DNA of 64,000 nucleotides from Acidiphilium sp. PA (GTDB taxonomy: Bacteria > Pseudomonadota > Alphaproteobacteria > Acetobacterales > Acetobacteraceae). The notes below the pieces were generated by a model. The model did not search any database. It was not told where the DNA came from and saw only the letters and a list, made by a program, of their open reading frames with translations. Every line of letters starts with the position of its first letter. Position 1 is the first letter of the stretch. The translations under genes and the position numbers were made by a program. The stretch covers positions 1 through 64,000 of the forward strand of contig NZ_JAIMBY010000003.1 in NCBI RefSeq assembly GCF_026191915.1, given 5' to 3'. Of this stretch, positions 21,909 through 55,203 are shown in pieces.

Positions 21909-23428
21909 GTGCCGCGCCTAGTGGCGGGGATTGCCGCGGCATGGGTGATCGGCAGAAGTGCAGCGATGCTGGGTGCGGCGATTTTCAGGACCGGCTGGGG
22001 ATCGACGCCGAGCCAGATGACGGCGGTGCCCAGCGCGAGCATCAGGGCGGTTTCGCGCGCGCTGAGATCATGCGTGTGGCGCGCGGCACTCGCCCCGCCG
22101 TGAAAGGCGCGCTGGATCGCGATCAGGGAATAGAGCGCTGCCGGGATCAGGCCGATCGCGGCGAGGACGGCGATGGCGGGAGACGCTGCATAGACGCCGC
22201 GCAGGATGAGGAACTCGCCCACGAAATTCGCAAGGCCAGGCAGACCCATCGAGGCGATGACGAAGAACGTGCCGAACGAGGACAGGCGGGGCAGGTCGGT
22301 CCAGAGCCCGCCCATCCGCGTGAGGTCGCGGGTGTGCAGGCGGTGCTGGATGCTGCCGACCGTGATGAACAGCGCCCCGGTGCTGACGCCGTGCGCGATC
22401 ATCAGGATCACCGCGCCCTGCCAGGCGATGGCGTTGAAACTGTAGATGCCGATCAGCACGAAGCCCATGTGGCCGATGCTGGAATAGGCGACCAGTTTTT
22501 TCAGATCCGACTGGCCGTAGGCAAGGATGGCGCCATAGAAAATACTGATCGTGCCGAGCGCCATCGCCAGGGGGGCGATGTGATGCGCGACGGTGACGAA
22601 CAGTGGCACGGCGAAGCGCATCAGCCCGTAGCCGGCGGTTTTCAGCAGGATGCTGGCAAGGATGACGGAGCCGGCGGTGGGGGCTTGGGTATGCGTGTCC
22701 GGCAGCCAGCTGTGCACCGGGAACGAGGGCAGTTTCACCAGAAAGGCGATGAAGAAGCCGAGCATGATGAGCATGCCGAGGCGGCCGGTCGGCTGGCTGG
22801 CCAGCAGGGCGACATAATCGAAGGTCAGCACGCCGGTCTGCTGCTGGTGGCGGAAGGCGAGCGCCAGGATCGATAGCAGCATCAGCAGCCCGCTGCCCTG
22901 GGTGAACAGGAAGAATTTGATCGCGGCGCGGCGGCGGTGTTCGTGGCCCCAGATGGCGATGATGAAATACATCGGCACCAGCATCACTTCCCAGAAGAAG
23001 AAGAACAGGAATAGATCGAGCGCGAGGAACACGCCGATTGATCCGGCCAGGGACCATAGCAGGTTGGCATGGAAAAAGCCGGTGCCGTGATCGATCTCGC
23101 GCCAGGACACGATGACGGCGAACAGGCCGATGAGGATGGTCAGCACGATCAGCAGCCAGCTCAACCCATCGAGATCGAGGCGGATGCCGATGCCGAAGGT
23201 GGGAATCCAGCGTGCGTCGAAGGTGGCGAGCCAGTGGCCCGATTGGATCGGGCTGGGTGTGCTGAGGATGGCGGTGCCCGAACCATGGACCAGGGGCAGG
23301 ATGAGGGCGAGTTCGAGCAGCAGGGTGGCGAGGCTGATGGCGCGCGGCAGCATCGGGGCGATGCGGTCGGCCGGCCAGGCAAGCAGGCCGCCGAGCAGGG
23401 GGATGATCAGGAGCCAGGCCAGGATCAT
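21905..23428 (-). CDS. nuoM: NADH-quinone oxidoreductase subunit M
   Basis: This 507-residue membrane subunit is related to Mrp antiporters. Landmarks are the FFFFWEVMLVPMYFIIAIWG segment with the key Glu, KLPSFPVHSWLPDTHTQAP (channel Lys/His region), SSIGHMGFVLIGI and GLPGLANFVGEF. It contributes one of the three antiporter-like channels. Its start overlaps the nuoL stop (ATGA), and its stop overlaps the nuoN start. Confidence 0.96.
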   Translation of the reverse strand: MILAWLLIIPLLGGLLAWPADRIAPMLPRAISLATLLLELALILPLVHGSGTAILSTPSPIQSGHWLATFDARWIPTFGIGIRLDLDGLSWLLIVLTILIGLFAVIVSWREIDHGTGFFHANLLWSLAGSIGVFLALDLFLFFFFWEVMLVPMYFIIAIWGHEHRRRAAIKFFLFTQGSGLLMLLSILALAFRHQQQTGVLTFDYVALLASQPTGRLGMLIMLGFFIAFLVKLPSFPVHSWLPDTHTQAPTAGSVILASILLKTAGYGLMRFAVPLFVTVAHHIAPLAMALGTISIFYGAILAYGQSDLKKLVAYSSIGHMGFVLIGIYSFNAIAWQGAVILMIAHGVSTGALFITVGSIQHRLHTRDLTRMGGLWTDLPRLSSFGTFFVIASMGLPGLANFVGEFLILRGVYAASPAIAVLAAIGLIPAALYSLIAIQRAFHGGASAARHTHDLSARETALMLALGTAVIWLGVDPQPVLKIAAPSIAALLPITHAAAIPATRRGT

Positions 23429-25299
23429 GCGAACACCAACAGGGCGATGGTTGCGATCGAGCCGGCCATCAGCCAGGCAGCGTAGCGGCGGAGCTGGCCG
23501 ATCTGGCTGCGGCGGAGGGTCTGGTGCAGCTGCAGCGTCGTGGCGCTGATCAGGGTAACGACATGGTCGACCGGGTCGTGCCGGAGCGCGCCCACCAGCG
23601 CCATGAACGGGCGGACCAGCAGGATTTCATAGAGCGCATCGAAACCGAAACCAGAGCGCAGCAGGCGGCGGAGCGCGCCCGGTTGGGCGGCGGCGGCGCG
23701 CTGCCAATGGCCGCTGCGATACAGCGTGTAGGCGATGGCGATGCCGAGCAGCGGGACGATGAAACCGGCGGCCTCGATCAGGATCGTCAACGCCGATCGG
23801 GATGCGGGGCTGCCGAGCACGGGGTGCAGCAGGGTCATCACCAGACGATCGCCGCCGAGGAACGACGGTGTTTCGAGCCAGCCGATCAGCAGCGATCCGG
23901 CGGCGAGCAGCACGAGCGGTACGGCGATCGGCGCGCCGGACCGGCCGGTGACCGGGGTATGGGTCGGGCCGAAAAACACCAGGAAGACCACCCGGAAACT
24001 ATAGGTCGCGGTGATCAGCGCGCCGAGCAGCCCGGCCGCCCATAAGCCGGGGCCGATGCCGGGGGCGAACCAGACGGCGCCGAGGATCATTTCCTTGCTG
24101 AACGAGCCTGCGCTGACGATCGGCACCGCGGCGAGCGAGGCGGCGCCGATCAGGAAGCTCCAGAAGGCGAGCGGGAGGCTTGTGCGCAGGCCGCCCATTT
24201 TGAAGATGTCCTGCTCATGGTCGAGCCGCATGGCGATGGCGCCGGCCGAGAGGAACAGCAGCGCCTTGAAGACGGCGTGGGTGAGGAAATGGAACATCGC
24301 GGCCGACCAGGCGCCGACGCCGAGGGCGAGGAACATGTAGCCGATCTGGCTGATCGTGGAGTAGGCGAGTACGCGTTTGATGTCGGACTGCACCAGGGCG
24401 GCCAGCGCCGCGAGCAGGATGGTGATGCCGGCGCCGATCGATATCGTGAGCAGCACGTCCGGCGCGAGCAGGTACAGCACGTGGAGCCGCACCACGAGAT
24501 AGACGCCGGCGGTGACCATAGTCGCGGCATGGATCAGCGCGCTGACCGGCGTTGGCCCGGCCATGGCGTCGGGCAGCCAGGTCTGGAACGGGAATTGGGC
24601 GGATTTGCCGAGACCGCCGATCAGCAGCAGGCCTGCGGCGAGGGTTGGCCATGTGCCACCGTGCGGCCAGAGTTCGGTTGCGCGCGCGAGCATCGGCTGG
24701 ATCGCGAGCGTGCCGAGTTTGACGGCCAGCAGCAGAATGCCGGCCAGCATCGCGATGTCGGCGATGCGGGTGACGATGAAGGATTTGCGCGCGGCATAGC
24801 CGTTGGCGGCGTCCTGAAACCAGAAGCCGACCAGCAGGTAGCTGCAGACGCCGACGCCTTCCCAGCCGACGAACAGGACCAGCAGATCGCTTGCCAGGAT
24901 CAGCAGCAGCATCGCGGCGACGAACAGGTTGAGATAGGCGAAATAGCGGCTGTAGCCGTCCTCCCCCGCCATATAGGCGGTCGAGAACAGATGGATCAGC
25001 GTGCCGATGATGGTGATGACGAGCATCATCAGCAGGGAGACGGGATCGAGATAGAGGCCGATATCGACCGTGAGGCCGGGCAGGGTCAGCCAGGTCCAGA
25101 GATGTTGGATGAAGATGTGCGATGGCGGTGCGGCTGCATACCAGTGGAGCCCGATCAGGATTGCGATGAGGGCGGCGATGCCGACGCTTGCGGTGCCGAT
25201 GAGGGCTGTGGCGCGGGCTGGCAGCATTGTGCCGCACAGGCCGAGGATGACGGCGCCGAGGAGTGGGCTTGCGGGGACCAGCCAGAGGAGATGGTTCAT
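23425..25299 (-). CDS. nuoL: NADH-quinone oxidoreductase subunit L
   Basis: The product is 624 residues, normal for NuoL. It includes LFVGWEGVGVCSYLLVGFW, SAQFPFQTWLPDAMAGPTPVSALIHAATMV (quoted in part), YSTISQIGYMFLALG and FFGPTHTPVTG. The C-terminal region carries the long lateral helix that bridges the antiporter subunits. It is at the distal end of the membrane arm. It overlaps nuoK upstream and nuoM downstream by 4 bases each. Confidence 0.96.
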   Translation of the reverse strand: MNHLLWLVPASPLLGAVILGLCGTMLPARATALIGTASVGIAALIAILIGLHWYAAAPPSHIFIQHLWTWLTLPGLTVDIGLYLDPVSLLMMLVITIIGTLIHLFSTAYMAGEDGYSRYFAYLNLFVAAMLLLILASDLLVLFVGWEGVGVCSYLLVGFWFQDAANGYAARKSFIVTRIADIAMLAGILLLAVKLGTLAIQPMLARATELWPHGGTWPTLAAGLLLIGGLGKSAQFPFQTWLPDAMAGPTPVSALIHAATMVTAGVYLVVRLHVLYLLAPDVLLTISIGAGITILLAALAALVQSDIKRVLAYSTISQIGYMFLALGVGAWSAAMFHFLTHAVFKALLFLSAGAIAMRLDHEQDIFKMGGLRTSLPLAFWSFLIGAASLAAVPIVSAGSFSKEMILGAVWFAPGIGPGLWAAGLLGALITATYSFRVVFLVFFGPTHTPVTGRSGAPIAVPLVLLAAGSLLIGWLETPSFLGGDRLVMTLLHPVLGSPASRSALTILIEAAGFIVPLLGIAIAYTLYRSGHWQRAAAAQPGALRRLLRSGFGFDALYEILLVRPFMALVGALRHDPVDHVVTLISATTLQLHQTLRRSQIGQLRRYAAWLMAGSIATIALLVFA

Positions 25300-25613
25300 G
25301 CCTCGACATCCCGCAGGCGGTTGGCGGCATCGCCGTCGAGCGTGGTGAGGAGGTTGCGCAGGCGGAGCAGCAGGATCAGGCCGAGGGCGAGCTCGGCGCC
25401 AGCGAGGTTGATCACGAAGATGAACATGATCTGGCCCTGCGGGTTGCCCCAGCGCATGCCGGCGGTGATGAACAGCAGGCCGGTGGCGTTCAGCATGATT
25501 TCGATCGACATCAGCACGAAGATCAGGCTGCGGCGGGCGAGCAGGCCGATCAGGCCGATGATCAACAGCATGGCGGCAAGGACAGCCGGGGCGTGCCAGG
25601 AGAGGCTGACCAT
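25296..25613 (-). CDS. nuoK: NADH-quinone oxidoreductase subunit K
   Basis: The 105-residue protein has three membrane segments and two buried glutamates of the E-channel, in LMSIEIMLNATGLLF and NLAGAELALGLILLLRLR. Length and sequence are typical. It overlaps nuoL by 4 bases and is separated from nuoJ by only four bases. Confidence 0.96.
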   Translation of the reverse strand: MVSLSWHAPAVLAAMLLIIGLIGLLARRSLIFVLMSIEIMLNATGLLFITAGMRWGNPQGQIMFIFVINLAGAELALGLILLLRLRNLLTTLDGDAANRLRDVEA

Positions 25614-25617
25614 TGCG

Positions 25618-26133
25618 CTAGTCCCGCGCCCTGGCCGGGCGGCCGAGGTGGTAGGCGCCGATCAGCCCGGCGAGCAGCAGCATCGAGGCGAGTTCGACCG
25701 CGGCGATATCGGAGGTGAACAATTCGAGGCCGACCGCCTGCGGCGAGACGATGTGGTGCGCGTGGGTGGGGCCGGTGCCGCGGAGCAGGCCGTAGAGCAA
25801 TTCGCCGCCGAGTGCGGCGCCGGCCAGGATGGGGATGATCCAGATCGTGCGTGTCAGCCAGCCGGATTCGCGCGCGATGGCGGTGCGGTCGAGCCGGAGC
25901 ATCATCACGACGAACAGGAACAGGACCATGATGGCGCCGGCGTAGACGATGACTTCGAGCGCGGCCGCGAACGGCGCGCCGAGCGTGTAGAACACCACGG
26001 CCATGCCGAGCAGCGACAGGACGAAATTGAGCAGGCCGTAGAGCGGGTTGGCGCGGGTGATCGCGATGGCCGTGGTGAGCAGGGCGAAGGCGGCGGCAGC
26101 GTAGAAGACGATGTCGTAACCCGAGAGGTTCAT
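25618..26133 (-). CDS. nuoJ: NADH-quinone oxidoreductase subunit J
   Basis: This 171-residue protein has five hydrophobic segments and the characteristic [19 protein letters not shown] stretch, whose conserved TM3 contains the pi-bulge Tyr/Gly region. It is part of the proximal proton channel with NuoH and NuoK. It starts 4 bases inside the nuoI gene. Confidence 0.95.
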
Positions 26134-26648
26134 GGCAGCAGCCCCCGAGGGTCGACCGGCGGGCTTTCGTTGAGCCCGGCACCTTTGGGCTTGCCGGCGG
26201 TTGCGACGCCGGCGATGCGGTAGAAATTGTAGTCGGGGACTTTGCCGGTGCCCGCGATCAGCAGATGCTCTTTTTCATAGACCAGGCTCTGGCGGGAGAT
26301 TTCGCTCATTTCGAAATCGGGGATGAGCTGGATGGCGGATGTTGGACAGGCTTCCTCGCAGAAGCCGCAGAAGATGCAGCGGGAAAAATTGATCCGGAAA
26401 TGCTCGGGGGTCCACTGGCCAGGCGCCGCCGTCCTTTGCAGGCTGATGCAGTCGCAGGGGCAGACCGCCGCACAGAGATAGCAGGAGACGCATCGTTCCT
26501 CGCCGTCCGGATCGCGGGTGAGGACGATACGGCCGCGGTAGCGCGGTGCGAGATAGGGTTTTTGTTCCGGATATTGAACGGTTTCGGTCTTGTGGAAGAG
26601 GTGCAGGAAGGTGAGCCACATCGTGCGGATGGCGCTGGTGATGAACAT
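26130..26648 (-). CDS. nuoI: NADH-quinone oxidoreductase subunit I (2x[4Fe-4S])
   Basis: The 172-residue ferredoxin-like subunit carries clusters N6a and N6b. Two CxxCxxCxxxC motifs are seen, [15 protein letters not shown] and [12 protein letters not shown]. It passes electrons towards N2 and the quinone site. An amphipathic N-terminal region ([14 protein letters not shown]) contacts the membrane arm. It lies 6 bases after nuoH and overlaps nuoJ. The C-terminal segment rich in Gly/Pro is slightly extended. Confidence 0.95.
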
Positions 26649-26654
26649 GCGGGG

Positions 26655-27614
26655 TTACTCGATGCCGCCGAGCATCAGCGCGCCGGTGATCGCGAGATTG
26701 GCGATGGTGAGCGGCAGCATCAGCTTCCAGCCGTATGACATCAATTGATCGTAGCGCGGGCGGGGCAGGGCGGCGCGCAGCAGGATGAAGAAGGCGATGA
26801 ATGCGCCGATTTTCAGGGCGAACCAGACGGCGGGCGGCAGCCACGGGCCGTGCCAGCCGCCGAAATAGAGCACGACGGTGATCGAGGAGATCAGCACGAT
26901 GCTGGCGTATTCGGCGATGAAGAACATGCCGAATTTCATGCTGGAATATTCAGTGTGAAATCCGGCACCCAGCTCGTTTTCGCCTTCCGGCAGGTCGAAT
27001 GGCAGGCGGTGCGCTTCCGCGATGCCGGCGATCAGGAAGGGCAGAAAGCCGAAGAATTGCGGGATCACGAACCAGACGCGGGTTTGCGCCGCGACGATGG
27101 TTTCAAGGTTGAACGACCCGGTCAGCATGACCACGCCGACCACGGCGAGGCCCATGAACACTTCGTAGCTGATGGTTTGCGCCGCCGCGCGCATGCCGCC
27201 GAGCAGCGCGAATTTGCTGTTCGACGACCAGCCCGCGAGGATGACGCCATAGACCGACAGCGACGTCATGCCGAGGAAGAACAGCAGGCCGATGTTGAGG
27301 TTGGGCATGATGCCGGCGAGCGGGCCGAGCGGGATGACGGCAAAGGCGAGCACCACCGTGGTCAGCACGATGATGGGTGCCGCGGTGAAGATGATTTTGT
27401 CGGCGAAGGGCGGCGTCCAATCCTGCTTGAAGAAAATCTTGATCATGTCGGCGACGATTTGCAGCGTGCCCTGCCAGCCGACCCGATTGGGCCCGAGCCG
27501 GTCCTGCCAGAAGCCGAGCAGGCGGCGCTCGGCGAAGGTGAGGCCGGCGGCGAGGAGGGTGATGCCGAGCAGGACGGCGACAGCCTGGATCAGGGATAGC
27601 AGGATGGCGTTCAT
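26655..27614 (-). CDS. nuoH: NADH-quinone oxidoreductase subunit H
   Basis: The 319-residue subunit has eight membrane segments and forms the quinone chamber with NuoB and NuoD. Conserved parts are DRLGPNRVGWQGTLQIVADMIK (in part), EAHRLPFDLPEGENELGAGFHTEYSS (in part) and LRAALPRPRYDQLM. I chose ATG 27614 (MNAILLSLIQ), whose ATGA overlaps the nuoG stop. The frame is open upstream but only as antisense-like sequence in nuoG. Confidence 0.95.
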   Translation of the reverse strand: MNAILLSLIQAVAVLLGITLLAAGLTFAERRLLGFWQDRLGPNRVGWQGTLQIVADMIKIFFKQDWTPPFADKIIFTAAPIIVLTTVVLAFAVIPLGPLAGIMPNLNIGLLFFLGMTSLSVYGVILAGWSSNSKFALLGGMRAAAQTISYEVFMGLAVVGVVMLTGSFNLETIVAAQTRVWFVIPQFFGFLPFLIAGIAEAHRLPFDLPEGENELGAGFHTEYSSMKFGMFFIAEYASIVLISSITVVLYFGGWHGPWLPPAVWFALKIGAFIAFFILLRAALPRPRYDQLMSYGWKLMLPLTIANLAITGALMLGGIE

Positions 27615-30268
27615 GACGGTTCGCCGGGGTGGATTGCGGTGATCGTGAGGCTGCCGGGTAGGGGCAGGCCCGGTTCGCCCTGCACGCCGATGGTAAGGCC
27701 GGCGACGCCTGCGGCCATGGCCGGGTCGAGCGCGATGGCGCGGCGGACCGTGGTTGTGCCGATCGTGCAATCGACCCTCGTGCCGGCGGACAGGCCGTGC
27801 GTTGCGGCATCGGCGGGGTTCACGCGGAGGATGGGGCCGCCCACGCGTGATGCGACCGCTTGTGCGAGATTGCTCAGCTCATCCGAGCCGAATACGCGCC
27901 GAATCGGCAGGGCGAGTATACCCGGCGCTGGTGGTGGCGGATGGGGGAGCGGCAGTTCGGTGGGGATGCATGCGCTGGTCGGGAAGAGCATGACGCCCGG
28001 CTCGGCTGCCGAGGGGAATTTGAGGTTTGCCTGCACGGAGTTCCAGCCGGGTGACCAGACATGGGGCATCAGGCCGCTGCGCGGCATGAGGCCCTCCATC
28101 GTCGGGCCGAGCGGGGAATCGGGGTTTGTGAAGGGCGGAGGTTCGCGCACATTGGCGGCTGCATTGACGGCGGTGCGGCTGCTGTAGCGGTGCGGCAGTG
28201 TGGCGGGGCGCTGCATAATGTTGTCATGCGTATGCGGCCAGAGGGCGCGGCAGGCGGCGAGGTCGGGGATGTTTGCAGCCATGGCATCGATCAGCTCGCG
28301 GTGGGTAGCCCAGGCGGTTGCGTCGAGCCGGCCGGCGGCGATGCCGGCGTTGCGCAGGACGTGCCAGGAAGGCGGGGCGTCGTCGGTGCTGAAGATCGCC
28401 TTGAAGCTGCGCTGGGCGCGGCCTTCCTGGTTGACGGTCGTGCCATCGGCGTCGGCGAAGCTGCCGACCGCGATGGCGAGATCGGCTGTCGCGGTGGTCG
28501 GGGTTTCAATGCAGTCGAGTACGCTGAGTGAGGCGATGCGGTGGAAGGTGCCTTCCAGTGGACCCGTTTCGCAGCGGCGGTGCAGGTCGTTTTCCAGCAC
28601 GATGACATGTGGTGCCGTCCCGGTTTGGATTGCGGCCAGGGCGGCGGATAACGGGGGTGCGCCGAACAAGCCGAGGCCGAGGCTGTTGGCTTCGGGCAGC
28701 AGGATCGACAGGCGCGCGGCGATACCTTTGCGGCGCAGGGTTGTGACGATGTTGGCGGCGGCGCGCATCAGGGCGCTGTCGCCTCCGACCACGATGACCG
28801 GGGCGGAGGCGCGGCGCAGGGTGGCGGCGATGGCGGTTGGATCCGCGGGTGACGGGTGTTCGAGTTGGGTTTTGATGGCAGCGGCGAGGGTGAGCAGTGC
28901 GGCCGGGGCGATGCGGTGGCAGGTTGTTGCGCAATCATCGAGCCTCGTGCTCATCGGTGTCGCGATGATCAGCGGTGTTGGCGACCCGAATGCGCTGCGG
29001 CGGGCGGCGCTGTCGTTCCAGGCGGGGATCTGCCGGATCGCCAGGGCCTCGCTGGTTGGGCGCTGGGCGGACTGGCGGAGCGACAAGGCGAGGATGGGTG
29101 CGATGTCGGACGGGTCTTCGCCGAGGATCAGCACGGCATCGGATTGCGCGGCATCGGCCGGTGTTGCGATCGGGACCGCCGCATCGCGCAGGATGGTGAT
29201 GGCGGTGGCGATGATATCGGCATCGTGATCCGACACGCCGGCGTAGAAATGCGCGGGCCCGACCAGAAGGCGCAGAGCCGCGTTGGCTTCGAGCGAGGCG
29301 CGCGGCGATCCGATGCCGATGACGTTGTTTGTTCGTAACAGTTCAGCGAGTGCGGCGGTCGCGGCTGGGATAGCGACGGGCGTTCCGGGGCCTTGCGCGT
29401 CCCGCTGGGTGGATCTGCGAAGTCGTGCCGGCGAGCGGATGAAATCGATGCCGAACCGTCCGCGGTCGCAAAGGAAATACCCGTTCAGCGCCGCGTTATG
29501 ACGATTGACGACGCGCCTGAATTCGCCTTCGCGTTCCTGCACCGTGATGTTGCAGCCGACGGCGCAGTGCGGGCAGATCGAGGGGGTGGCGCGCATGTCC
29601 CATTTGCGGCGAAACCGGGTTGCGAAGGGTTTGTCGACGAACACGCCGGTCGGGCACACTTCCACGAGATTGCCGGCGAATTCGCTTTCCAGCGTGCCTG
29701 GGGTGGCGCGGCCGAAATAGATGTTGCGGTTGGCGCCGAATACGCCGAAATCATCGCCGCCGGCATAGTCGCGGTAGAACCTGACGCAGCGGTAGCAGCC
29801 GATGCAGCGGTTCATTTCATGGCGGATGAACGGGCCAAGATCCTGGTTGAGATGGGTGCGCTTGGTAAAGCGGTAGCGTCGTTGTGTATGTTTGACGAGA
29901 GCGGTCATGTCCTGCAAATGGCATTCGCCGCCGACGTCGCAGACCGGGCAATCATGCGGATGATTGGTCAGGACAAATTCGATCACCCGGTCGCGAAATT
30001 GCGCGGTGGCTGGATCGGTGATCGACAGACGCATGCCCGACGTCGCCGGGGTCATGCAGGCCATGACGATCTGGCCGGTGTGATCCTCCGGGCCGTTGAA
30101 CAGTTTGACGGCGCATTGCCGGCAGGCGCCGACCGCGCCGAGCGCGGGGTGCCAGCAGAAATAGGGGAGGTCGAGTTGGGCCGACAAGCAGGCTTCGAGG
30201 ACAGTCTGGCCGGGTTGGGCCGTGATGATCGTGCGATCGACATCGAGGTGGAGATGGTTCAGGTCCAT
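27611..30268 (-). CDS. nuoG: NADH-quinone oxidoreductase subunit G, with N7-cluster motif
   Basis: The product is 885 residues. The 2Fe-2S region has CWHPALGAVGACRQC. The HPHDCPVCDVGGEC motif gives the His-ligated N5 site, and CIGCYRCVRF...CPTGVF gives N4. The molybdopterin-like domain contains CPHCAVGCN...CDRGRFG, the four Cys of the off-pathway N7 cluster. N7 is typical of E. coli-type complex I and is missing from most mitochondrial-type alphaproteobacterial enzymes. The long C-terminal part is less conserved. It overlaps nuoF by 10 bases. Confidence 0.94.
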   Translation of the reverse strand: MDLNHLHLDVDRTIITAQPGQTVLEACLSAQLDLPYFCWHPALGAVGACRQCAVKLFNGPEDHTGQIVMACMTPATSGMRLSITDPATAQFRDRVIEFVLTNHPHDCPVCDVGGECHLQDMTALVKHTQRRYRFTKRTHLNQDLGPFIRHEMNRCIGCYRCVRFYRDYAGGDDFGVFGANRNIYFGRATPGTLESEFAGNLVEVCPTGVFVDKPFATRFRRKWDMRATPSICPHCAVGCNITVQEREGEFRRVVNRHNAALNGYFLCDRGRFGIDFIRSPARLRRSTQRDAQGPGTPVAIPAATAALAELLRTNNVIGIGSPRASLEANAALRLLVGPAHFYAGVSDHDADIIATAITILRDAAVPIATPADAAQSDAVLILGEDPSDIAPILALSLRQSAQRPTSEALAIRQIPAWNDSAARRSAFGSPTPLIIATPMSTRLDDCATTCHRIAPAALLTLAAAIKTQLEHPSPADPTAIAATLRRASAPVIVVGGDSALMRAAANIVTTLRRKGIAARLSILLPEANSLGLGLFGAPPLSAALAAIQTGTAPHVIVLENDLHRRCETGPLEGTFHRIASLSVLDCIETPTTATADLAIAVGSFADADGTTVNQEGRAQRSFKAIFSTDDAPPSWHVLRNAGIAAGRLDATAWATHRELIDAMAANIPDLAACRALWPHTHDNIMQRPATLPHRYSSRTAVNAAANVREPPPFTNPDSPLGPTMEGLMPRSGLMPHVWSPGWNSVQANLKFPSAAEPGVMLFPTSACIPTELPLPHPPPPAPGILALPIRRVFGSDELSNLAQAVASRVGGPILRVNPADAATHGLSAGTRVDCTIGTTTVRRAIALDPAMAAGVAGLTIGVQGEPGLPLPGSLTITAIHPGEPS

Positions 30269-31545
30269 GCGCAGGTCCTGGTTTCGATGTGCCGGGTGAA
30301 TTCGGCGCTGAAATAGCGCAGGCCGGTTTGCAGCGATGCCATCGCACCGGGTGCGAGGGCACAGAAGGTGCGGCCCGGACCGAGATTGCCGGTCATGTCT
30401 TCAAGCGTATCGAGATCATCCGCTACACCGGTACCGGCCTCGATCGATTTCAGGATGCGTTCGACCCAGGGCAGACCATCGCGGCACGGGGCGCACCAGC
30501 CACAGGATTCGCGGGCAAAAAACTGTTGAAGATTAGCAATGAATCCGATCGGGCAGGTGTGATCGTCGAGTACGATGGCCGTGCCGGTGCCGAGCCTGGT
30601 GCCGTGGGCGGCCATGGTTTGCGCGGTCATGCTGACGTCGAGCTGATCGGCTGGGAGAAACCCGGTCGAAGCACCGCCGGGCAGGACGGCGCGCAGTTCA
30701 TAGCCGGGTTTCATGCCGCCGGCATGGTGTTCGATCATGTCACGGAGTGTCGTGCCCATCGGCAGTTCGAAGGCGCCCGGGTGGTTCACCCGCCCGCTGA
30801 CGCCGTAGATTTTGGTGCCGAGGCCGCCATTGATGCCGAGGCTGCGGTACCACGCTGCACCGTAGCGGACGATATGCGGAATGTTGCAGATGGTCTCGAC
30901 GTTGTTGACGATGGTCGGGCAGCCCCAGAGGCCGCTGATCTGCGGAAATGGCGGCTTGGCGCGGGGGATGGCGCGATGGCCTTCCAGCGCGTTCAGCAGC
31001 GCGGTTTCCTCGCCGCAGATGTAGCGCCCGGCGCCGGCGTGCACATGGATCGAAAGATTATAGCCGGAGCCCAGGATATTCTGACCGAGCAGGCCTGCGG
31101 CCGTCGCTTCGGCGATTGCGGTGTTCAGGCGCTCGATGGCGGTGACGTATTCGCCGCGCACGAAGATATAGGAAAGGTTCGCTTCGAGAGCGTAGGCGCT
31201 CAGGATGATGCCCTCGATCATCTGGTGGGGGTCGCCTTCGAGCAGCAGGCGGTCCTTGAAGGTGCCGGGTTCCATTTCATCGGCATTGACGACGAAGTAG
31301 CGGGGGCCGGGCCGTTGTGCGGCGCCTGGCATCAACTGCCATTTGCGCCCGGTTGGAAAGCCGCCGCCGCCGCAGCCGGCGAGGCCGGACTCGGCGACCA
31401 TGTGTACGATCGCGGCGGGCTCGGTCTTGCCGAGCGTATCGCGGACCGCGCGATAGCCATCGGCCCGTTCGTAGGCGGCGATATCGAAATGTGGTGCGCC
31501 GCGATGGATGTTGCGCGTCAACGGGCGGTCGGGCGGGGTCTTCAT
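30259..31545 (-). CDS. nuoF: NADH-quinone oxidoreductase subunit F (NADH/FMN site)
   Basis: This 428-residue subunit binds NADH, FMN and cluster N3. It has the glycine-rich nucleotide loop GCGGGGFPTGRKW, VVNADEMEPGTFKDR, GAGRYICGEETALLNALEG and the N3 motif ESCGWCAPCRDG. ATG 31545 overlaps the nuoE stop (ATGA). The frame is open further upstream but reads the reverse phase of nuoE. Length agrees with E. coli NuoF (445). Confidence 0.96.
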   Translation of the reverse strand: MKTPPDRPLTRNIHRGAPHFDIAAYERADGYRAVRDTLGKTEPAAIVHMVAESGLAGCGGGGFPTGRKWQLMPGAAQRPGPRYFVVNADEMEPGTFKDRLLLEGDPHQMIEGIILSAYALEANLSYIFVRGEYVTAIERLNTAIAEATAAGLLGQNILGSGYNLSIHVHAGAGRYICGEETALLNALEGHRAIPRAKPPFPQISGLWGCPTIVNNVETICNIPHIVRYGAAWYRSLGINGGLGTKIYGVSGRVNHPGAFELPMGTTLRDMIEHHAGGMKPGYELRAVLPGGASTGFLPADQLDVSMTAQTMAAHGTRLGTGTAIVLDDHTCPIGFIANLQQFFARESCGWCAPCRDGLPWVERILKSIEAGTGVADDLDTLEDMTGNLGPGRTFCALAPGAMASLQTGLRYFSAEFTRHIETRTCAWT

Positions 31546-32036
31546 GGGAGCGGCGTGGTGTCGAACATTGCATCGAGCGTGGCGGGATCGACGTCGCCGT
31601 GCAGGACATCGTTCGCCATCATCGCCGGGGCGTGATCGCAATGGCCGAGGCATACGATGGGCAGAAGTGTGAACCGGCCGTCGGTCGAGGTCTCGCCTGG
31701 CTTGATGCCGATGCGGCGTTCGATGTGCTGTGCCAGATGATCGCGCCCGGTGATCCAGCAGGTAATGCTGTCGCACAACAGGATAACGGTCTGGCCGACG
31801 GGTTTGCGGTAGATCAGATTGTAGAATGTCGCGATGCCGTCGAGTTCGGCGACGGGAAGGCCGAGCAGATGGGCGATTTCGGTCAGGATGTCGTCGGCGA
31901 TGTAGCGCCGCCTTTGCTGGACGAGTTTCAGTGCATCGATCGCGGCGGCACGCGCGGTCGGGGAGTGGCGGAGCAGATTGCGGATTTCGGTGCGCTCGGC
32001 CGGATCGAGCGGGGGCTGGGTCTCAACGATCGACAT
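31542..32036 (-). CDS. nuoE: NADH-quinone oxidoreductase subunit E (2Fe-2S)
   Basis: The 164-residue protein carries cluster N1a. Four Cys ligands appear as CDSITC and CLGHC, in the same spacing as in E. coli Nuo[11 protein letters not shown] and the thioredoxin-like core are conserved. It overlaps the end of nuoCD by 14 bases and is coupled to nuoF. Confidence 0.95.
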
Positions 32037-33801
32037 CGGCCATTACGAAATCGATGCTGCCGATGATCGCGATGAGGTCGGCGAGATAGGCGCCGCGGCT
32101 GATCGCGGGGATGATCTGCAGATGGGCGAAGGAGGGGGTGCGGATGCGCACCCGGTAGGGCTGGGTAGTGCCGTCGCTGACCAGGTGATAGGTGTTGAGG
32201 CCCTTGGTCGCTTCGATCGTGCTCGATACCTCGCCGGGGGGAATCACGGCGCCCCAGGTCGCGTTGAGGAAATGCGGGATCAGCGTGTCGATGTCATGCA
32301 GCACGGCTTCGCGCGGCATCGGCATGGCGAGCGGATGGTTCGATTTGACAGGGCCTGGCGGCATTTGTTTCAGGCACTGGGCGATGATTCGCAGGCTCTC
32401 GCGCATTTCATCGAGCCGCAGTTGAACGCGGTTGTAGCAATCGCCGCGCTGGGCGATCGGGATGTCGAACGCGAGCTGGTCATAGCCGGAATAGGGATGG
32501 ATTTTGCGATAGTCGAACGCGATGCCTGTAGCGCGCAGGCCCGGGCCGGTGACGCCCCAGTCGAGCGCTTCGGCTGCGCTGTATTCACCGATGCCGATGG
32601 TGCGGGCTTTGAATATGCGGTTGCGCATCACCATCGATTGATATTCGTCGAGCCGCCGGGGCAGATAGGCGAGAAATGCGCGGACCCTGGCATCCCAGCC
32701 CTGGGGCAGATCGGCGGCGACGCCGCCGATCCGGAAGAACGAGGGGTGCATGCGAAAGCCGCAGATCATTTCGATCAGTTCGAGGGCGCGTTCACGGTCG
32801 GTAAAGACGTAGAACACGGGCGATAACTGGCCGACGTCCTGGACCATGGTGCCGAAGAAGACGAGATGGCTGATGATCCGGAAAATCTCGGCCAGCATGA
32901 TGCGGATCATCTGCGCCCGGGCTGGGACGGTGATGCCGGCCAGTTGCTCCACGCCCATCACGTAGGGGAAATTATTCATCACGCCGGCAACATAATCGAT
33001 GCGGTCGGTGTAGGGGATGAAGCTGTGCCAGGACTGACGTTCGCCGATTTTTTCGGCGCCCCGATGATGAAAGCCGATTTCGGGGACGACATCGATGATT
33101 TCTTCGCCACGCAGCTTGACCACCAGCCGCAGGACGCCGTGCAGGCTGGGGTGGTTGGGGCCGAGGTTGATGATCATGGTTTCGGGATCATCGTCGGTAT
33201 CGTCGATCATGCCGGCGAGCGCTGGAATGTCGCGGAGGGCATGCTGTTCGGCCTGTTCGGTCGAGGCTGGCAAGACGAACGGGCCGCGTTCCGTCGCACG
33301 GCTGTAGTGGTCCTTGCGGAGCGGGTGACCCTGCCAGCTTTCGGGCATCAGGATGCGACGGAGATTGTCATGCCCAGCGAAGCGGATGCCGAACATGTCC
33401 CATATTTCGCGCTCGTACCAATTTGCGTTCGGAAACACCGGGCACAGGGTCGGGGCGATCAGCGCATCCTGCGTCAGGGGAATTTTCACCCGCAGCTGCC
33501 TGCCGTCGGTCGGGCGAAGCACGTGGTATAGCAGGGTGAAATCGGCACAATTTGGATGCGGGCGGTGGGTGCGCTGCCGTTCGTCGATCGCCGTGATATC
33601 GAGCAGGAGCCGATAATTCTGGGTCTGGTCGGTTTTGAGGTACTGCATCTGGTGGATCAGATGATCGGCGTCGCACCAGATGGTTTCGATGGCATCGGTG
33701 GTGGCTTGCGGCGATGGCGGCACGGGTTGCCCCGGTTGGGCGGCGGGCGGGCAGGATTTCAGAGCCGGCGGGGCAATGGCGTCGGACAAGGTTACGCTCA
33801 T
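32023..33801 (-). CDS. nuoCD: NADH-quinone oxidoreductase, fused subunits C and D
   Basis: The single 592-residue chain joins NuoC (about 30-190, with [21 protein letters not shown] in part and GHPLRKDH) and NuoD (about 200-592, with [22 protein letters not shown] in part, HRGAEKIGE and [11 protein letters not shown]). The NuoD His and Tyr of the quinone pocket lie in the HPSLHG region and in the [14 protein letters not shown] stretch. Fusion is typical of the E. coli-type operon, whereas most alphaproteobacteria have separate nuoC and nuoD. It overlaps the start of nuoE. Its ATG touches the nuoB stop. Confidence 0.96.
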
Positions 33802-34397
33802 TACAGGCGATCCGGCAGCGGTGATGTCCGCATGGCCATGCGGGCGTCGGTCTTGAGGTCGCGCTGGCTGGGCGGGGTGTAGGGAACCGGTCCGGTGTCG
33901 CCGATCATCCAGCTCAACGGGCGTTTTGTGGCGCTGATCGCGTTCTGGAGCAGTAGCAGGCCCTCGAACAGCGCTTCGGGCCGGGGTGGGCAGCCTGGCA
34001 CATAGACATCGACCGGCAGGATGCTGTCGACGCCCTGGACGACGCTATAGACGTCGTACATGCCGCCGGAATTGGCGCAGGAGCCCATCGAGATGACCCA
34101 GCGCGGCTCGAGCATCTGATCGTAGAGATATTTCACCACCGGCGCCATTTTCAGGAATACGGTGCCGGCGATGACGATGACGTCCGCCTGGCGGGGCGTC
34201 GCGCGCAGAACCTCGGCACCGTAGCGTGCGATGTCGAATTTGGAGGTGAACGAAGTTGCCATTTCGACGTAGCAGCAGGACAGGCCGAAATTGAACGGCC
34301 AGAGCGAGTGTTTCTGACCCCAGGAGACGAGATCCTCCAGCTTGCCGAGCATGAACTTCTGGTTGGCGCCGGTCGGGTCCGGCGCTGGGTGGTTCAC
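33801..34397 (-). CDS. nuoB: NADH-quinone oxidoreductase subunit B (cluster N2)
   Basis: NuoB holds terminal cluster N2. Its ligands are seen in [18 protein letters not shown] and [10 protein letters not shown] prefer GTG 34397, giving 198 residues, because it forms a GTGA overlap with the nuoA stop, matching the coupling elsewhere in the operon. An ATG at 34445 in the same frame would overlap nuoA by 52 bases. The C-terminal tail after PYTPPSQRD is slightly extended. Confidence 0.94.
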
Positions 34398-34801
34398 AGC
34401 GCCCGATTCCGGGCCGGCAAAGGCATCCGCGCCCGTGGCCGCCAATCCAGCGCGCCGGAGCGCCAGAGATAGGCCAGTGCAATCAAGAGCAAGGTGAGGA
34501 ATGACATGATGCCGCCATAGGCCGGCCAGCCGGCACGACGGGCGGCGATTGCCCAGGCGAAAACGAAGACCGTTTCAAGGTCGAAAACGACGAACAGCAT
34601 GGCGACCAAGTAGAACTGGCTGGGAAACCTGATTTTCGCATCGTGGATCGGCATGATGCCGGATTCGAACGGGTTTGGGTCGGCCGGACCGCGTCTGCGG
34701 GGACCGAGCAGATAAGAGCCGCCGACCATGACGCATGTCATTGCGATGATGGCAATGATGTAGACCCCAAGCCCGAAGAACTGGGGGAGCGCTGGCGTCA
34801 T
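34394..34801 (-). CDS. nuoA: NADH-quinone oxidoreductase subunit A
   Basis: The 135-residue protein is the first gene of the 13-gene nuo operon. It has three membrane segments and the conserved loop NPFESGI...[27 protein letters not shown] (quoted in part), which borders the quinone channel. The operon runs A-B-CD-E-F-G-H-I-J-K-L-M-N without any accessory gene. Transcription must start in the roughly 400-base gap upstream. Confidence 0.95.
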
Positions 34802-51294: not shown

Positions 51295-52179
51295 TCAAGC
51301 GAGCATCCGGCCGGCTATCGCGTCCAATCGGGCAACCACCTCGGGATCGCGCGCGGCGGGCGGCGTAATGATCGCATAATCGAGCGCGTGATCGCATCCG
51401 GCCCCGCACACATGCCGTTCACCGCCCAGGCCCGGCACTACGGCGCGCACCAACCCTCGGGCTTTATCGGCATTGCCGAGCAGCACCTTCACGACCTGTT
51501 CCACCGTCACCGCCTCGTGTTCGGTGTGCCAACAGTCGAAGTCGGTCACCATTGCTACGGTCGCATAACAAATCTCCGCCTCGCGTGCGAGCTTCGCCTC
51601 CGGCATGTTGGTCATGCCGATCACTGAACAGCCCCAGCTGCGATACAAATTGCTCTCGGCCCGTGTCGAAAACTGCGGTCCTTCCATCGCCAGATAGGTC
51701 CCGCCGCGCGTCACCGGCAGGCCCAAATCAGTCGCCGCACGCTCCAGCGCATCGCCGAGCCGCCGGCAGACCGGGTCCGCCATCGACACATGCGCGACAC
51801 AGCCGGTGCCGAAAAAACTCTTGGCCCGCGCGAAGGTCCGGTCGATAAATTGATCCACGATCACGAAATGTCCAGGCGGCAACTCGCCCTTCAGGCTCCC
51901 CACTGCCGAGAGCGACAGAATGTCCGTCACGCCGGCCCGCTTCATCACGTCGATGTTCGCGCGGTAATTCAGATCGGTCGGCGACAGTTTATGCCCCCGC
52001 CCATGGCGCGGCAGAAACACGACGGACACGCCCTCCAGCGTGCCGAACAGCAGCTCGTCCGAAGCCTCGCCCCAGGGGCTCGAAACCCGCTGCCAGCGCT
52101 GATCCGCCAGCCCTTCGATGTCATACAGGCCTGAGCCGCCGATGATCCCGATCACCGGCGCCCGTACGTCATCGCTCAT
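51295..52179 (-). CDS. mtnP: S-methyl-5'-thioadenosine phosphorylase
   Basis: The 294-residue purine phosphorylase starts MSDDVRAPVIGIIGGSGLYDIEGL (in part) and has FLPRHGRGHKLSPTDLNYRANI (in part), LSAVGSLKGELPPGHFVIVDQFIDRT (in part), and MEGPQFSTRAESNLYRSWGC (in part). It converts methylthioadenosine and phosphate to adenine and methylthioribose-1-phosphate in methionine salvage. ATG 52179 overlaps the cytochrome c1 stop (ATGA), an unexpected coupling to respiratory genes. Confidence 0.93.
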   Translation of the reverse strand: MSDDVRAPVIGIIGGSGLYDIEGLADQRWQRVSSPWGEASDELLFGTLEGVSVVFLPRHGRGHKLSPTDLNYRANIDVMKRAGVTDILSLSAVGSLKGELPPGHFVIVDQFIDRTFARAKSFFGTGCVAHVSMADPVCRRLGDALERAATDLGLPVTRGGTYLAMEGPQFSTRAESNLYRSWGCSVIGMTNMPEAKLAREAEICYATVAMVTDFDCWHTEHEAVTVEQVVKVLLGNADKARGLVRAVVPGLGGERHVCGAGCDHALDYAIITPPAARDPEVVARLDAIAGRMLA

Positions 52180-52811
52180 CGCGTCATCCTCGTCGCCATC
52201 ACCAGAAACCCGACCACGCCGAGCACCAGTAGAAATAAAATTGCCCGCAGCCCGGTTGCCTTGCGCTCATCGAGCGTCGGGTCCGCCGTCCAGGCGAGAA
52301 ACGCCGCGACGTCATGCGCCATCACCGGCACGCTCGCCGCCTTGCCATCAGCCAGCATGACGGACCCCGGCTTTAAAGACGGTGCCATCGCAATCTGGCC
52401 GCCGGGATAGGCGATATTGTAATAATGTCCCGGCAGCATCGTCATGTTCGGCAAAGCGGTTCGATAGCCGGTCATCAAATCGAACACCGCCGATGCGCCA
52501 TGCCGATGCCCGGCTTCGTACAGCGACAGATCCCCGGCAACCGCGCCGCCCGCTTCCGGCTTGGTAACCGGCTTGCCCTTGGCCAGAAGCGCGGTCACCT
52601 GCGCAGGCGTCAGTCCCAGCGTCTGTAATTCATTAGGCGAAACCAGATTCAAACTATGGCAACGCGCGCAATTTGCCTGATAGGTGGCAAACCCGATTTG
52701 CAGTTCGGCCTTGTCGAACCCGCCGAACCAGGACTGGAAGCCGAACTGCGGCGCACCCGCAAACGCCACCGCCGGCAGCAACACCGCCAACGCCAACAGG
52801 ATCGCCCGCAT
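52176..52811 (-). CDS. petC: Cytochrome c1-like protein (short)
   Basis: The 211-residue product from ATG 52811 has a signal peptide (LLALAVLLPAVAFA), heme c motif CARCH at 48-52, axial Met142 in IAMAPSL, and PGHYYNIAYPGGQ. The C-terminal anchor follows ERKATGLRAILFLLVLGVVGFLVM (in part). These match cytochrome c1 of the bc1 complex, although the canonical protein is about 40-50 residues longer. ATG touches the cytochrome b stop (TGATG). Confidence 0.88.
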   Translation of the reverse strand: MRAILLALAVLLPAVAFAGAPQFGFQSWFGGFDKAELQIGFATYQANCARCHSLNLVSPNELQTLGLTPAQVTALLAKGKPVTKPEAGGAVAGDLSLYEAGHRHGASAVFDLMTGYRTALPNMTMLPGHYYNIAYPGGQIAMAPSLKPGSVMLADGKAASVPVMAHDVAAFLAWTADPTLDERKATGLRAILFLLVLGVVGFLVMATRMTR

Positions 52812-53989
52812 CACGCGACCCCCATTGTCGTTACCGCACGCGGCCGTTCGAACATCGTCACCAACGGCGTCACCACCAGAAAATGGATGAAAAACCAAAT
52901 CGTCGTCAGATCCACCACCACCGACCATATGCCGCCCGCGGGCGCCGCCGCAGCGATCGCCAGCACCGCCACGTCCAGCGCCAGTGCCACGACGAACGCG
53001 GCATAAACCGGTCGCGCGCCACCGGCCGCGCCCGCACCGCGATCGAGCCAGGGCAGGGCGCCCATCAGCACCAACGCCAGAATTGTCAGAAACGCGCCGC
53101 CACCGGGCGTCACCCCGGCCCGCGCAAATCCATGAAACACCAGCAAATACCATGGCGGTACGGCTTGCAACGGCACTGCCAGCGGGTCCGGCAGGATCGG
53201 ACCTACCGGATAACCCAGACCTGGATCGACCGTAACGATCAACGCGAAGATCAGCGCGAACAGCAGAAACGCGCCGAACAACTGCGGTGCATAGGCAGCG
53301 CGCGGCACCAGTCGCCCCGGTTGGGGCGGTGCGACCCGCACGGCGGTGTAGCCCAGCGCTGCGATCAGCAGCACCAAAAACCCGATCGCGACATGCGCCA
53401 TTGTCATATGCGCGATGCTGGTTGCCCTCAGCCCATCGCCGCCCAGAAAATCTTGCGCCGCCGATGCCCCGATCACCGGGACAGCCGCGACATGCGCCGC
53501 CATCGCCAGCATTGCCGCCTGTGCATCCGGCCCGCCGGTCATGGCAAATCCGTAGAACCCGACCACCAGGAACGCGGCGAAGCGCACGATCTCGATCACC
53601 CAGGCCAGTTCGCGGCGGTTTCGATATGCCGCGTGATAAATCCCGTGAAACAGCGTCCAATACACGACGATGAACAGCATCGTTGCGCCATCGCGGTGCA
53701 GATCGACCATCAACCACCCGAACGGCACATTGCGCGCGTATTCGACCATCGACAACGCCGCCCCCCCCGGCGTCGGCACATAGGCCAGACCGAGCCAGAT
53801 GCCGCTCAGCGTCAGCACCGCCAGCGCCACGCCCACCATCGCGCCGAATGAACACGCAAACGGCAGATTGTCGGGCACCTGATGCTCCTGCCACAGCGTG
53901 CGATACCACGCTGTGACCGGCAATCGTGTCTCCAGCCATCCCGACGACGGCCGTGCGGCACCGCTCAGGCCTGATTGCGCATCACTCAT
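52811..53989 (-). CDS. petB: Aberrant cytochrome b (bc1-type) lacking bH ligands
   Basis: The 392-residue protein aligns without gaps to helix B of cytochrome b (LHRDGATMLFIVVYWTLFHG). His98 and His199 (MAH) correspond to the heme bL ligands. The positions 14 residues further on, which hold the bH ligands in the family, are Thr112 and Gly213. The Qo motif PEWY is PPWY (278-281) and LPWGQMS is lost, but the C-terminal domain (FFIHFLVVTPL) is intact. This suggests a cytochrome b with one b heme at most. It is overlapped by a 73-residue gene upstream. No Rieske gene is adjacent. Confidence 0.85.
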   Translation of the reverse strand: MSDAQSGLSGAARPSSGWLETRLPVTAWYRTLWQEHQVPDNLPFACSFGAMVGVALAVLTLSGIWLGLAYVPTPGGAALSMVEYARNVPFGWLMVDLHRDGATMLFIVVYWTLFHGIYHAAYRNRRELAWVIEIVRFAAFLVVGFYGFAMTGGPDAQAAMLAMAAHVAAVPVIGASAAQDFLGGDGLRATSIAHMTMAHVAIGFLVLLIAALGYTAVRVAPPQPGRLVPRAAYAPQLFGAFLLFALIFALIVTVDPGLGYPVGPILPDPLAVPLQAVPPWYLLVFHGFARAGVTPGGGAFLTILALVLMGALPWLDRGAGAAGGARPVYAAFVVALALDVAVLAIAAAAPAGGIWSVVVDLTTIWFFIHFLVVTPLVTMFERPRAVTTMGVA

Positions 53990-54207
53990 GAATGCAACCC
54001 TTTCAGCATCGCGGCCGGCCCTTTGGCCACCGGTGCCGCGCTCATCGCTGCGGCCGGCGGTCGCAGCGCCGCCGCGAATCCCCAAACCAGCGCCAACACG
54101 CCCACCAGCACCAGCCCGCCGAACAGGATCGGCAGAAACGGTCGCCGCTCCTCATCCAAATGTGCTCCGTGTCCAGGCCCACCCGCGCCCGCGCCGATTT
54201 CAGCCAT
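53986..54207 (-). CDS. 73-residue single-span membrane protein in the place of Rieske
   Basis: The Gly/His-rich N-terminus (AGAGGPGHGAHLDEERR) precedes one membrane segment (PILFGGLVLVGVLALVWGFAAAL), then a Pro/Ala tail. It has no Cys, so it cannot be a Rieske protein. It is the first gene of the operon and overlaps the cytochrome b start by 4 bases (ATGA). It is probably a small subunit or assembly factor. I recognise no family. Confidence 0.7.
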   Translation of the reverse strand: MAEIGAGAGGPGHGAHLDEERRPFLPILFGGLVLVGVLALVWGFAAALRPPAAAMSAAPVAKGPAAMLKGLHS

Positions 54208-54309: not shown

Positions 54310-55203
54310 ATGACCGCAGCACGCCCCGCCATCCCCCACGAATCCCTCAAACCCGCCGCCGCGGCCTGGTTCGCCGAACTGCGCAACCGCATCTGCGCCG
54401 CCTTCGAATCGATCGAAGCCGACTATGCCGGCCCCTTGGCCGACCGCCCCGCCGGCCGCTTCACCATCACGCCCTGGACGCGCGAGCCCGACGGCAGAAA
54501 CCACCTCGAAGGTGGCGGCGAAATGGGCGTCATGCGCGGCCGTGTATTCGAAAAAGTCGGTGTCAACATCTCGATCGTCGGCGGCACCTTCAGCCCCGAA
54601 TTCGCAAAATCCATCCCCGGCGCCGCGGAAGACCCCCGCTTCTGGGCGGCCGGTATCAGCCTGGTTTCGCACATGCACAGCCCGCGCGTGCCCGCCGCCC
54701 ACATGAACACCCGCATGATCGTCACCTCCAAAGGCTGGTTCGGCGGCGGCGGCGACCTTACCCCCCTCCAGCCCGGCACCGAAGCCGCCCGGTCCGATGC
54801 CGCCACCTTCCACGCCGCTTTCCAGCACGCTTGCGATGCCCACAACCCCGAATATTATCCAAAATTCAAAAAATGGTGCGACGAGTACTTCTTCCTTCCC
54901 CACCGCAACGAAACCCGCGGTGCCGGCGGTATTTTCTACGACTATCTCGAATCCAACCCCGAAGCCGATTTCGCCTTCACGCGTGACGTCGGCCTGGCCT
55001 TCCTGCAATCCTACCCCACCATCATCCGCCGCCGCATGAACGAGGCCTGGACCGCCGAAGAACGCGAAGCCCAACTCATCCGCCGCGGCCGCTACGTCGA
55101 ATTCAACCTCCTCTACGATCGCGGCACCACCTTCGGCCTTAAAACCGGCGGCAACACCGAAGCCATCCTCATGAGCATGCCACCCGAGGTGAAGTGGCCT
55201 TAG
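54310..55203 (+). CDS. hemF: Oxygen-dependent coproporphyrinogen III oxidase, C-terminally truncated
   Basis: The 297-residue protein has the HemF core: [27 protein letters not shown] (in part), [18 protein letters not shown] (catalytic His), [34 protein letters not shown] (in part) and [18 protein letters not shown]. Normal HemF continues about 24 residues past this SMPPxVxW motif. Here the frame ends in Pro and a TAG directly where IS630 remnant sequence begins. It oxidises coproporphyrinogen III to protoporphyrinogen IX with O2. Whether the truncated enzyme works is uncertain. It is divergent from the cytochrome operon. Confidence 0.88.

Follow-up and report, generated by a model that had tools for sequence, protein, structure and literature searches.

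What is a cytochrome bc1 operon kept for when its products appear unable to carry out the reaction of a bc1 complex? This question is raised by the pet locus of Acidiphilium sp. PA, which lies within a stretch of 64,000 nucleotides (contig NZ_JAIMBY010000003.1, positions 1 to 64,000; referred to as the window). The locus consists of three overlapping genes on the minus strand: a petA gene reduced to the membrane anchor of the Rieske protein, petB (cytochrome b), and petC (cytochrome c1). Judged from these genes and their relatives, about half of the electron-carrying parts of the complex are lost; cytochrome c1 and the Rieske anchor persist under constraint. The complex may thus have been converted into a membrane scaffold, a reading that is weighed below against three alternatives.

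Compared genomes are designated by G-numbers (G000 being that of Acidiphilium sp. PA itself) and loci by L-numbers. The nearest genome is that of A. rubrum ATCC 35905 (G096; NZ_FTNE01000026.1), with a PetB that is 90% identical. The PetB survey covered 11 loci from the genus Acidiphilium and 30 loci, from 36 matching genomes, of a second genus (g69), which is probably Acidocella as judged by its fit to the description in PMC10715153. These 41 derived loci were compared with 25 canonical loci from the same family, which are the best-matching 25 of a longer list and not a random draw. L035 was left out as it has no PetB open reading frame (ORF), and L037, which specifies the same protein as L051, was counted once.

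A Rieske anchor without a head

A previous sequence-only reading of the window had stated that the operon lacks a Rieske gene. This holds for the cluster domain, as no Rieske [2Fe-2S] domain with its two Cys and two His ligands is encoded in the operon. It does not hold for the gene as such, because an ORF of 73 codons (53986–54207, minus strand) sits in the petA slot ahead of petB. Position 54207, which that reading had given as the end of the locus, is the first base of this ORF. A 4-base overlap (ATGA) joins its stop codon to the petB start, petB and petC share a single base, which ends the petB stop codon and begins petC, and petC overlaps the next gene, mtnP, by 4 bases.

The 73-aa protein aligns to positions 2–43 (of 176) of TIGR01416 (Rieske_proteo) with an E-value of 0.0082, under the curated cut-off of that model; Pfam gave no match. 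A hidden Markov model (HMM) seeded with the anchors from 23 of the 25 canonical loci ranks it first among the 585 ORFs of the window (E 6.8e-5, with the next at 0.29). The intact Rieske protein from G196 (184 aa), searched against 13 genomes of the genus at E 0.001, has this ORF as its only match in the Acidiphilium sp. PA genome (query residues 4–51, 54% identity, E 1.4e-8). The same query detects the headless anchors of A. rubrum (E 6.7e-8) and G206 (E 8.4e-5), and at this threshold misses those of G153, G201, and G204. We consider petA to be present, with its predicted product cut back to the N-terminal transmembrane anchor.

In the group to which the window belongs, headless ORFs occur in G000, G096, G201, and G206, and, by position only, in G153. 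The G201 anchor is a weak match (E 0.049 with the canonical HMM, 0.0017 with an HMM from all anchors), and the 47-aa ORF of G153 reaches no significance (E 0.79 and 0.47, respectively). G204 is also headless, its anchor being 60% identical to residues 1–50 of the Rieske protein from its sister G202 (100/100 in the PetB tree). Because G202 keeps a full-length head, although without ligands, the Rieske head was apparently lost in two separate events, and the anchor was kept both times. The second event is read from a draft genome (G204, 88% complete, 280 contigs), in which the rest of the head was not found within the 8 kb searched around the gene. Within the group of the window, G196 and two headless groups form an open fork in the PetB tree, which is compatible with one or several head losses.

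Comparison of the Acidiphilium sp. PA and A. rubrum genomes shows purifying selection on the anchor. There are 6 nonsynonymous changes at 158 sites compared to 15 synonymous changes at 61 sites (Fisher test, p 1.5e-5, a misaligned petC row being left out), which corresponds to a ratio of nonsynonymous to synonymous rates (dN/dS) of 0.13.

Cytochrome b retains the bL site

The petB gene (52811–53989, minus strand) codes for a protein of 392 aa, which matches PF00033 (E 4.3e-21) and PF00032 (E 5.7e-14); both values were obtained with a version of the ORF carrying 32 extra N-terminal residues. The predicted structure (predicted local distance difference test score 83.1, predicted template modeling score 0.83) has the bc1 cytochrome b fold according to structure comparison. 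The family alignment confirms that the heme bL ligands H98 and H199 are retained, and that T112 and G213 occupy the positions of the heme bH ligands, as had been noticed from the sequence. It likewise bears out that the PEWY motif is replaced by PPWY. PetB has neither the four-His set nor the PEWY Glu of a functional bc1 complex.

All 25 canonical loci have the four His, and all but one have PEWY, the exception having PDWY. By comparison, the two bH His never occur together in the 41 derived loci, and the PEWY Glu is missing from all of them. The two bL His are retained in 41 and 40 of the 41 loci, so that 40 have both, at identities down to about 30%; the mean retention of the 111 columns that are invariant among the canonical proteins is 0.47. 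The sole derived cytochrome b with the second bL His replaced, by Leu, is that of L079 (G233).

The sequence-only reading had suggested that the bH pair was lost in one concerted change. This agrees with Acidiphilium, where neither His is found in any of the 11 loci, but not with g69, where the first His alone is present in 8 of 30 loci and the second alone in another 8, so that one bH His lingers in 16.

The remaining heme contacts follow the same division. The columns of G61 and G145, which we take to be glycines packing on heme bL, are kept in all 41 derived loci. The columns of G47 and G131, presumably packing on heme bH, are kept in 9 and 5, and each bH His column in 8; PetB from the window keeps the former glycine (as G49) and has Glu133 for the latter. 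Among residues that we assume to belong to the Qo or Qi quinone sites, P149, W150, Q152, M153, Y295, and D245 are retained in none of the derived loci and H216 in 4. On this evidence, the bL half of the predicted PetB stays, and its bH half is lost together with much of the quinone chemistry.

In the PetB tree, with the canonical set as outgroup, a fully supported branch (100/100) separates the derived loci from the canonical ones. One petB match per genome was found in 11 of 13 Acidiphilium genomes and in 36 of 38 g69 genomes, and none in the remainder. None of the 11 Acidiphilium and 36 g69 matches has an internal stop.

An ordinary bc1 complex with its Rieske protein encoded elsewhere, or with alternative bH ligands, is hardly credible and is largely contradicted already. 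A helix-D His that might serve as bH ligand is not available, since residues 200–285 of PetB from the window contain no His. The HMMER alignment to 8bel_C gaps helix D and the family alignment reads it without gaps; no His is found there either way. A second cytochrome b, and with it a canonical second petABC, was not found, the genome having a single PF00033 match. There are four Rieske-domain places besides the pet locus, which might be taken to favor a Rieske protein encoded elsewhere. However, one of them (L005:1375–2921) codes for the small (Rieske) subunit of arsenite oxidase (TIGR02694, E 1.7e-47), and two (L002, L003) read like ring-hydroxylase large subunits. The search with the full-length bc1-type Rieske protein returned the anchor alone from this genome, in which one place, L004, was not identified. 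Near the arsenite oxidase gene, the opposite strand carries ORFs resembling ArsR and a low-molecular-weight phosphatase.

With the bH ligands, the [2Fe-2S] head, and the PEWY Glu missing and no second cytochrome b found, the earlier proposal that the complex cannot bifurcate electrons is supported. A one-b-heme route from quinol to cytochrome c, which had been suggested along with it, is unlikely, because bH and several of the presumed quinone-site residues are gone in the 41 loci; nor is a shuttle between bL and c1 found in the window.

Cytochrome c1 and potential redox partners

The petC gene (52176–52811, minus strand) codes for a cytochrome c1 of 211 aa (PF02167, E 7.5e-42) with its C-terminal hydrophobic helix. 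As described before, it retains CARCH and the Met ligand (QIAM). A CXXCH motif occurs in every derived locus where the c1 ORF was caught, and CXXCH together with Met is found in 35 of 38 aligned derived proteins. This alignment includes only rows with CXXCH and is thus uninformative on CXXCH loss; L056, L081, and L019 (no CXXCH row) and L075 (no c1 ORF) are not part of the counts. In G153 (L009), G202 (L053), and G204 (L054), cytochrome c1 has CXXCH, and the loop with the Met ligand is missing.

Three places in the Acidiphilium sp. PA genome match COX1. The first is beside a COX2 gene with a CuA-like C-x3-C-x3-H-x2-M motif (aa3-type), the second is a frame of 695 codons (bo3-like), and the third is of another type. 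NrfD, the marker used for Alternative Complex III, has no match at E 0.001 in this genome; matches occur in 7 of 13 genomes of the genus, with 5 over the cut-off. Contig C34 (L107) carries genes for reaction-centre L/M-type proteins and a PufC-like frame containing four CXXCH motifs, although no working bc1 complex was found.

All 13 genomes of the genus have NuoD-family matches. A putative Complex I (nuo) cluster is located in the window itself (20484–34801, minus strand), about 17–18 kb from the pet genes. Within this cluster, NuoD is matched at 32026–32838, in a frame of 673 codons, as in fused NuoCD, and a second NuoD is encoded on another contig.

The two retained heme sites could be seen as a minimal redox module, in which bL and c1 transfer electrons on the periplasmic side from an unnamed donor outside the Q cycle to a cytochrome c or to the reaction centre. 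Both sites are kept in nearly all derived loci, and the aa3-type oxidase and the reaction-centre genes provide possible acceptors. We nevertheless regard such a module as improbable. Several residues that we take to be part of the Qo site are lost in all 41 loci, three species lack the c1 Met, and the bridging Rieske head is absent or without ligands wherever petA was read, except in G196. In known structures, the distance between bL and c1 is too long for direct transfer.

Dead Rieske heads and the order of loss

Full-length Rieske proteins could be compared after setting aside the headless loci and L019, L026, and L084. The 29 proteins from g69 invariably lack the first Cys ligand and the two His ligands; the second Cys ligand is missing from 10 of them, and the disulfide Cys are kept in all. 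Four of the five full-length Acidiphilium proteins are devoid of all four ligands and also keep the disulfide Cys; the fifth, from G196, has all four ligands. Taken together, the 33 dead heads have all lost the first Cys and both His ligands, 19 keep the second Cys ligand, and all keep both disulfide Cys. This suggests that the fold of these heads was kept and the cluster given up.

In G196, both bH His are lost and PEWY is replaced by PPWY, yet the Rieske ligands are intact. Because the bH His are gone in all 11 Acidiphilium loci, including this one, bH seems to have been lost before the Rieske cluster in Acidiphilium. The reverse order seems to apply to g69, because every one of its 29 aligned Rieske proteins is dead, yet a single bH His persists in 16 of 30 cytochromes b. 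Both orders must be treated as tentative, because the Rieske tree has long branches and conflicts on the point where the dead Acidiphilium heads join. The G196 protein is itself on a long branch, with a branching order that conflicts with the PetB tree. Horizontal replacement as the origin of this intact Rieske protein is not favored, since the tree joins this protein to the derived clade (100/99).

Scaffold or relic

The best explanation, in our view, is that the bc1 complex has been converted to a largely non-catalytic membrane scaffold, although we rate its chance of being correct as slightly below even. Hemes bL and c1 would be kept mainly for the folding and assembly of cytochromes b and c1, and the anchor for packing against cytochrome b. 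Within a respiratory supercomplex, formed either with Complex I, as has been guessed in print, or possibly with the aa3-type oxidase, the core would then act as a platform. Quinol would be oxidized elsewhere, most likely by a bo3-type quinol oxidase. The apparent twofold survival of the anchor beyond its head, the constraint on the genes, the retained disulfide Cys, the retention of bL over bH, and the intact predicted fold are consistent with this, as is the occurrence of NuoD-family matches throughout the genus. According to the accessible parts of PMC9502982 and PMC5730185, bL is the first heme inserted into cytochrome b, before bH. A structural complex is thus expected to keep bL, and the retained set looks assembly-related because the first-inserted heme, c1, and the Rieske anchor are what remains.

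Selection on the pet genes was compared with that on the two flanking genes, which served as controls: mtnP (S-methyl-5′-thioadenosine phosphorylase; 51295–52179, minus strand; NF006492, E 2.7e-159) and the divergently oriented hemF (oxygen-dependent coproporphyrinogen oxidase; 54310–55203, plus strand; NF003727, E 4.8e-112). In the comparison of the window with A. rubrum, petB has a dN/dS of 0.13 and petC one of 0.12, close to the value for the anchor given above, compared to 0.05 for mtnP and 0.10 for hemF. For petB from g69, values of 0.06–0.18 were obtained in four of five pairs and 0.34 in the fifth. The constraint on the pet genes is real, mostly weaker than that on the neighboring genes, and near relaxed in one pair.

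A strong rival, even if we consider it unlikely on balance, is that the complex is a decaying relic, left without a function once it was superseded by quinol oxidases, the genes eroding toward deletion and the slowest part being left. It is a strong rival because of a clean loss of the operon in one species. In G208 (L141:5432–7325), the whole petABC cassette is gone, and hemF and mtnP are direct neighbors about 0.1 kb apart. Ligands were lost at differing positions in differing lineages, and G153, G202, and G204 lost the c1 Met loop. Constraint is weaker in other Acidiphilium pairs than in the window pair: for G202 and G204, dN/dS is 0.42 (anchor), 0.17 (petB), and 0.25 (petC), compared to 0.14 for mtnP, and petB has values of 0.22–0.37 in comparisons involving G203, G205, and G207. 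A relic is, however, difficult to reconcile with the uninterrupted petB genes, with the low petB values for the window pair and most g69 pairs, with the near-strict persistence of the bL His in strongly diverged proteins, and with two anchors having outlived their heads.

Several observations weigh against a scaffold. In the near-relaxed pair, G206 and G201, dN/dS rises to 0.43 (anchor), 0.49 (petB), and 0.47 (petC), with 0.10 for mtnP, which also fits a relic. The G208 genome (99% complete) contains NuoD, three matches to COX1, and no petB. Because these matches are kept, petB is gone, and hemF and mtnP are adjacent, the complex is evidently dispensable in this species, and it is not strictly needed for keeping Complex I or the oxidases in every species. 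(G200 has no petB either, but is 83% complete and also has no mtnP.) The c1 Met is kept in 28 of 28 g69 proteins and in 7 of 10 aligned Acidiphilium proteins, which exceeds the need of a purely structural heme c. W and Y of the PEWY motif are found in all 41 derived loci and G151 in 39, and the production, assembly, and partner binding of the proteins are predictions. Finally, in the part of PMC5730185 available to us, it is the binding of bH, and not of bL alone, that closes the cytochrome b6 bundle and is apparently a prerequisite for b6f assembly. This passage opposes a stable core with bL only, which slightly lowers the standing of the scaffold and raises that of the relic.

In its full form, our account would be that a pseudo-enzyme scaffold is kept by selection, that the Acidiphilium Rieske protein was reduced to its anchor on two or more occasions, with the bL site and c1 left in place, and that the sister genera dismantled the complex in opposite orders. 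This is plausible, but we would sooner expect it to need revision than to stand as a whole.

Any structural role of the bc1 complex is hard to tell apart from electron transfer, as both are usually lost in ordinary mutants. In the present case, the two appear to have been split by evolution: many of the electron-transfer parts are gone, and what stayed is the bL site, c1, and the anchor. The culturable A. rubrum ATCC 35905 offers a natural system in which the contribution of a bc1 core to Complex I or an oxidase could be addressed. The same system raises the question of how species with reaction-centre genes re-oxidize quinol without a working bc1 complex.

Comparison with known systems

The canonical alphaproteobacterial bc1 complex (petABC), with structures solved in Rhodobacter and Paracoccus, shares with the locus described here the gene order, the cytochrome b fold, the bL ligands, c1, and the Rieske anchor. 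It differs in having the bH ligands, the PEWY Glu, and the [2Fe-2S] head, as well as several presumed quinone-site residues that are lost here.

The core observation made from the sequence alone is already in print. The accessible parts of Degli Esposti et al. 2023 (PMC10715153) describe a "deranged bc1 complex" in which PetB from Acidiphilium and Acidocella lacks the bH ligands. The Acidocella Rieske protein is reported there to have lost three or four ligands and to keep the disulfide Cys. Acidiphilium is said to have no Rieske gene and c1 to be intact, and the loss of bH is described as "always associated" with that of the Rieske protein. A structural role in stabilizing Complex I is suggested, citing work on Paracoccus. 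Our results agree with these passages in the genus, the operon, the loss of the bH His from PetB in that operon, and the retained c1, and the Rieske proteins of g69 fit the published description for Acidocella. On the Acidiphilium Rieske gene, the cluster domain is absent from the operon in the window, as published, but the anchor part is present. Further differences are that G196 has lost bH and keeps all four Rieske ligands intact, and that the c1 Met is absent from 3 of 10 Acidiphilium proteins. No mention of a retained Rieske anchor was found in the accessible parts of PMC10715153, PMC7677001, PMC8790237, and PMC12654162 or by literature searches, subscription papers and supplements being outside their reach. 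What appears to be new is the retained and constrained anchor from apparently two head losses, the G196 combination, and the near-strict bL retention in 41 loci.

The accessible part of PMC3899299 provides a further parallel in Complex III from BCS1L-deficient mitochondria. There too, a bc1 core is short of the Rieske protein, and supercomplexes are reported to be preserved. That case is a disease state with an intact cytochrome b, whereas the Acidiphilium complex would represent an evolved state.

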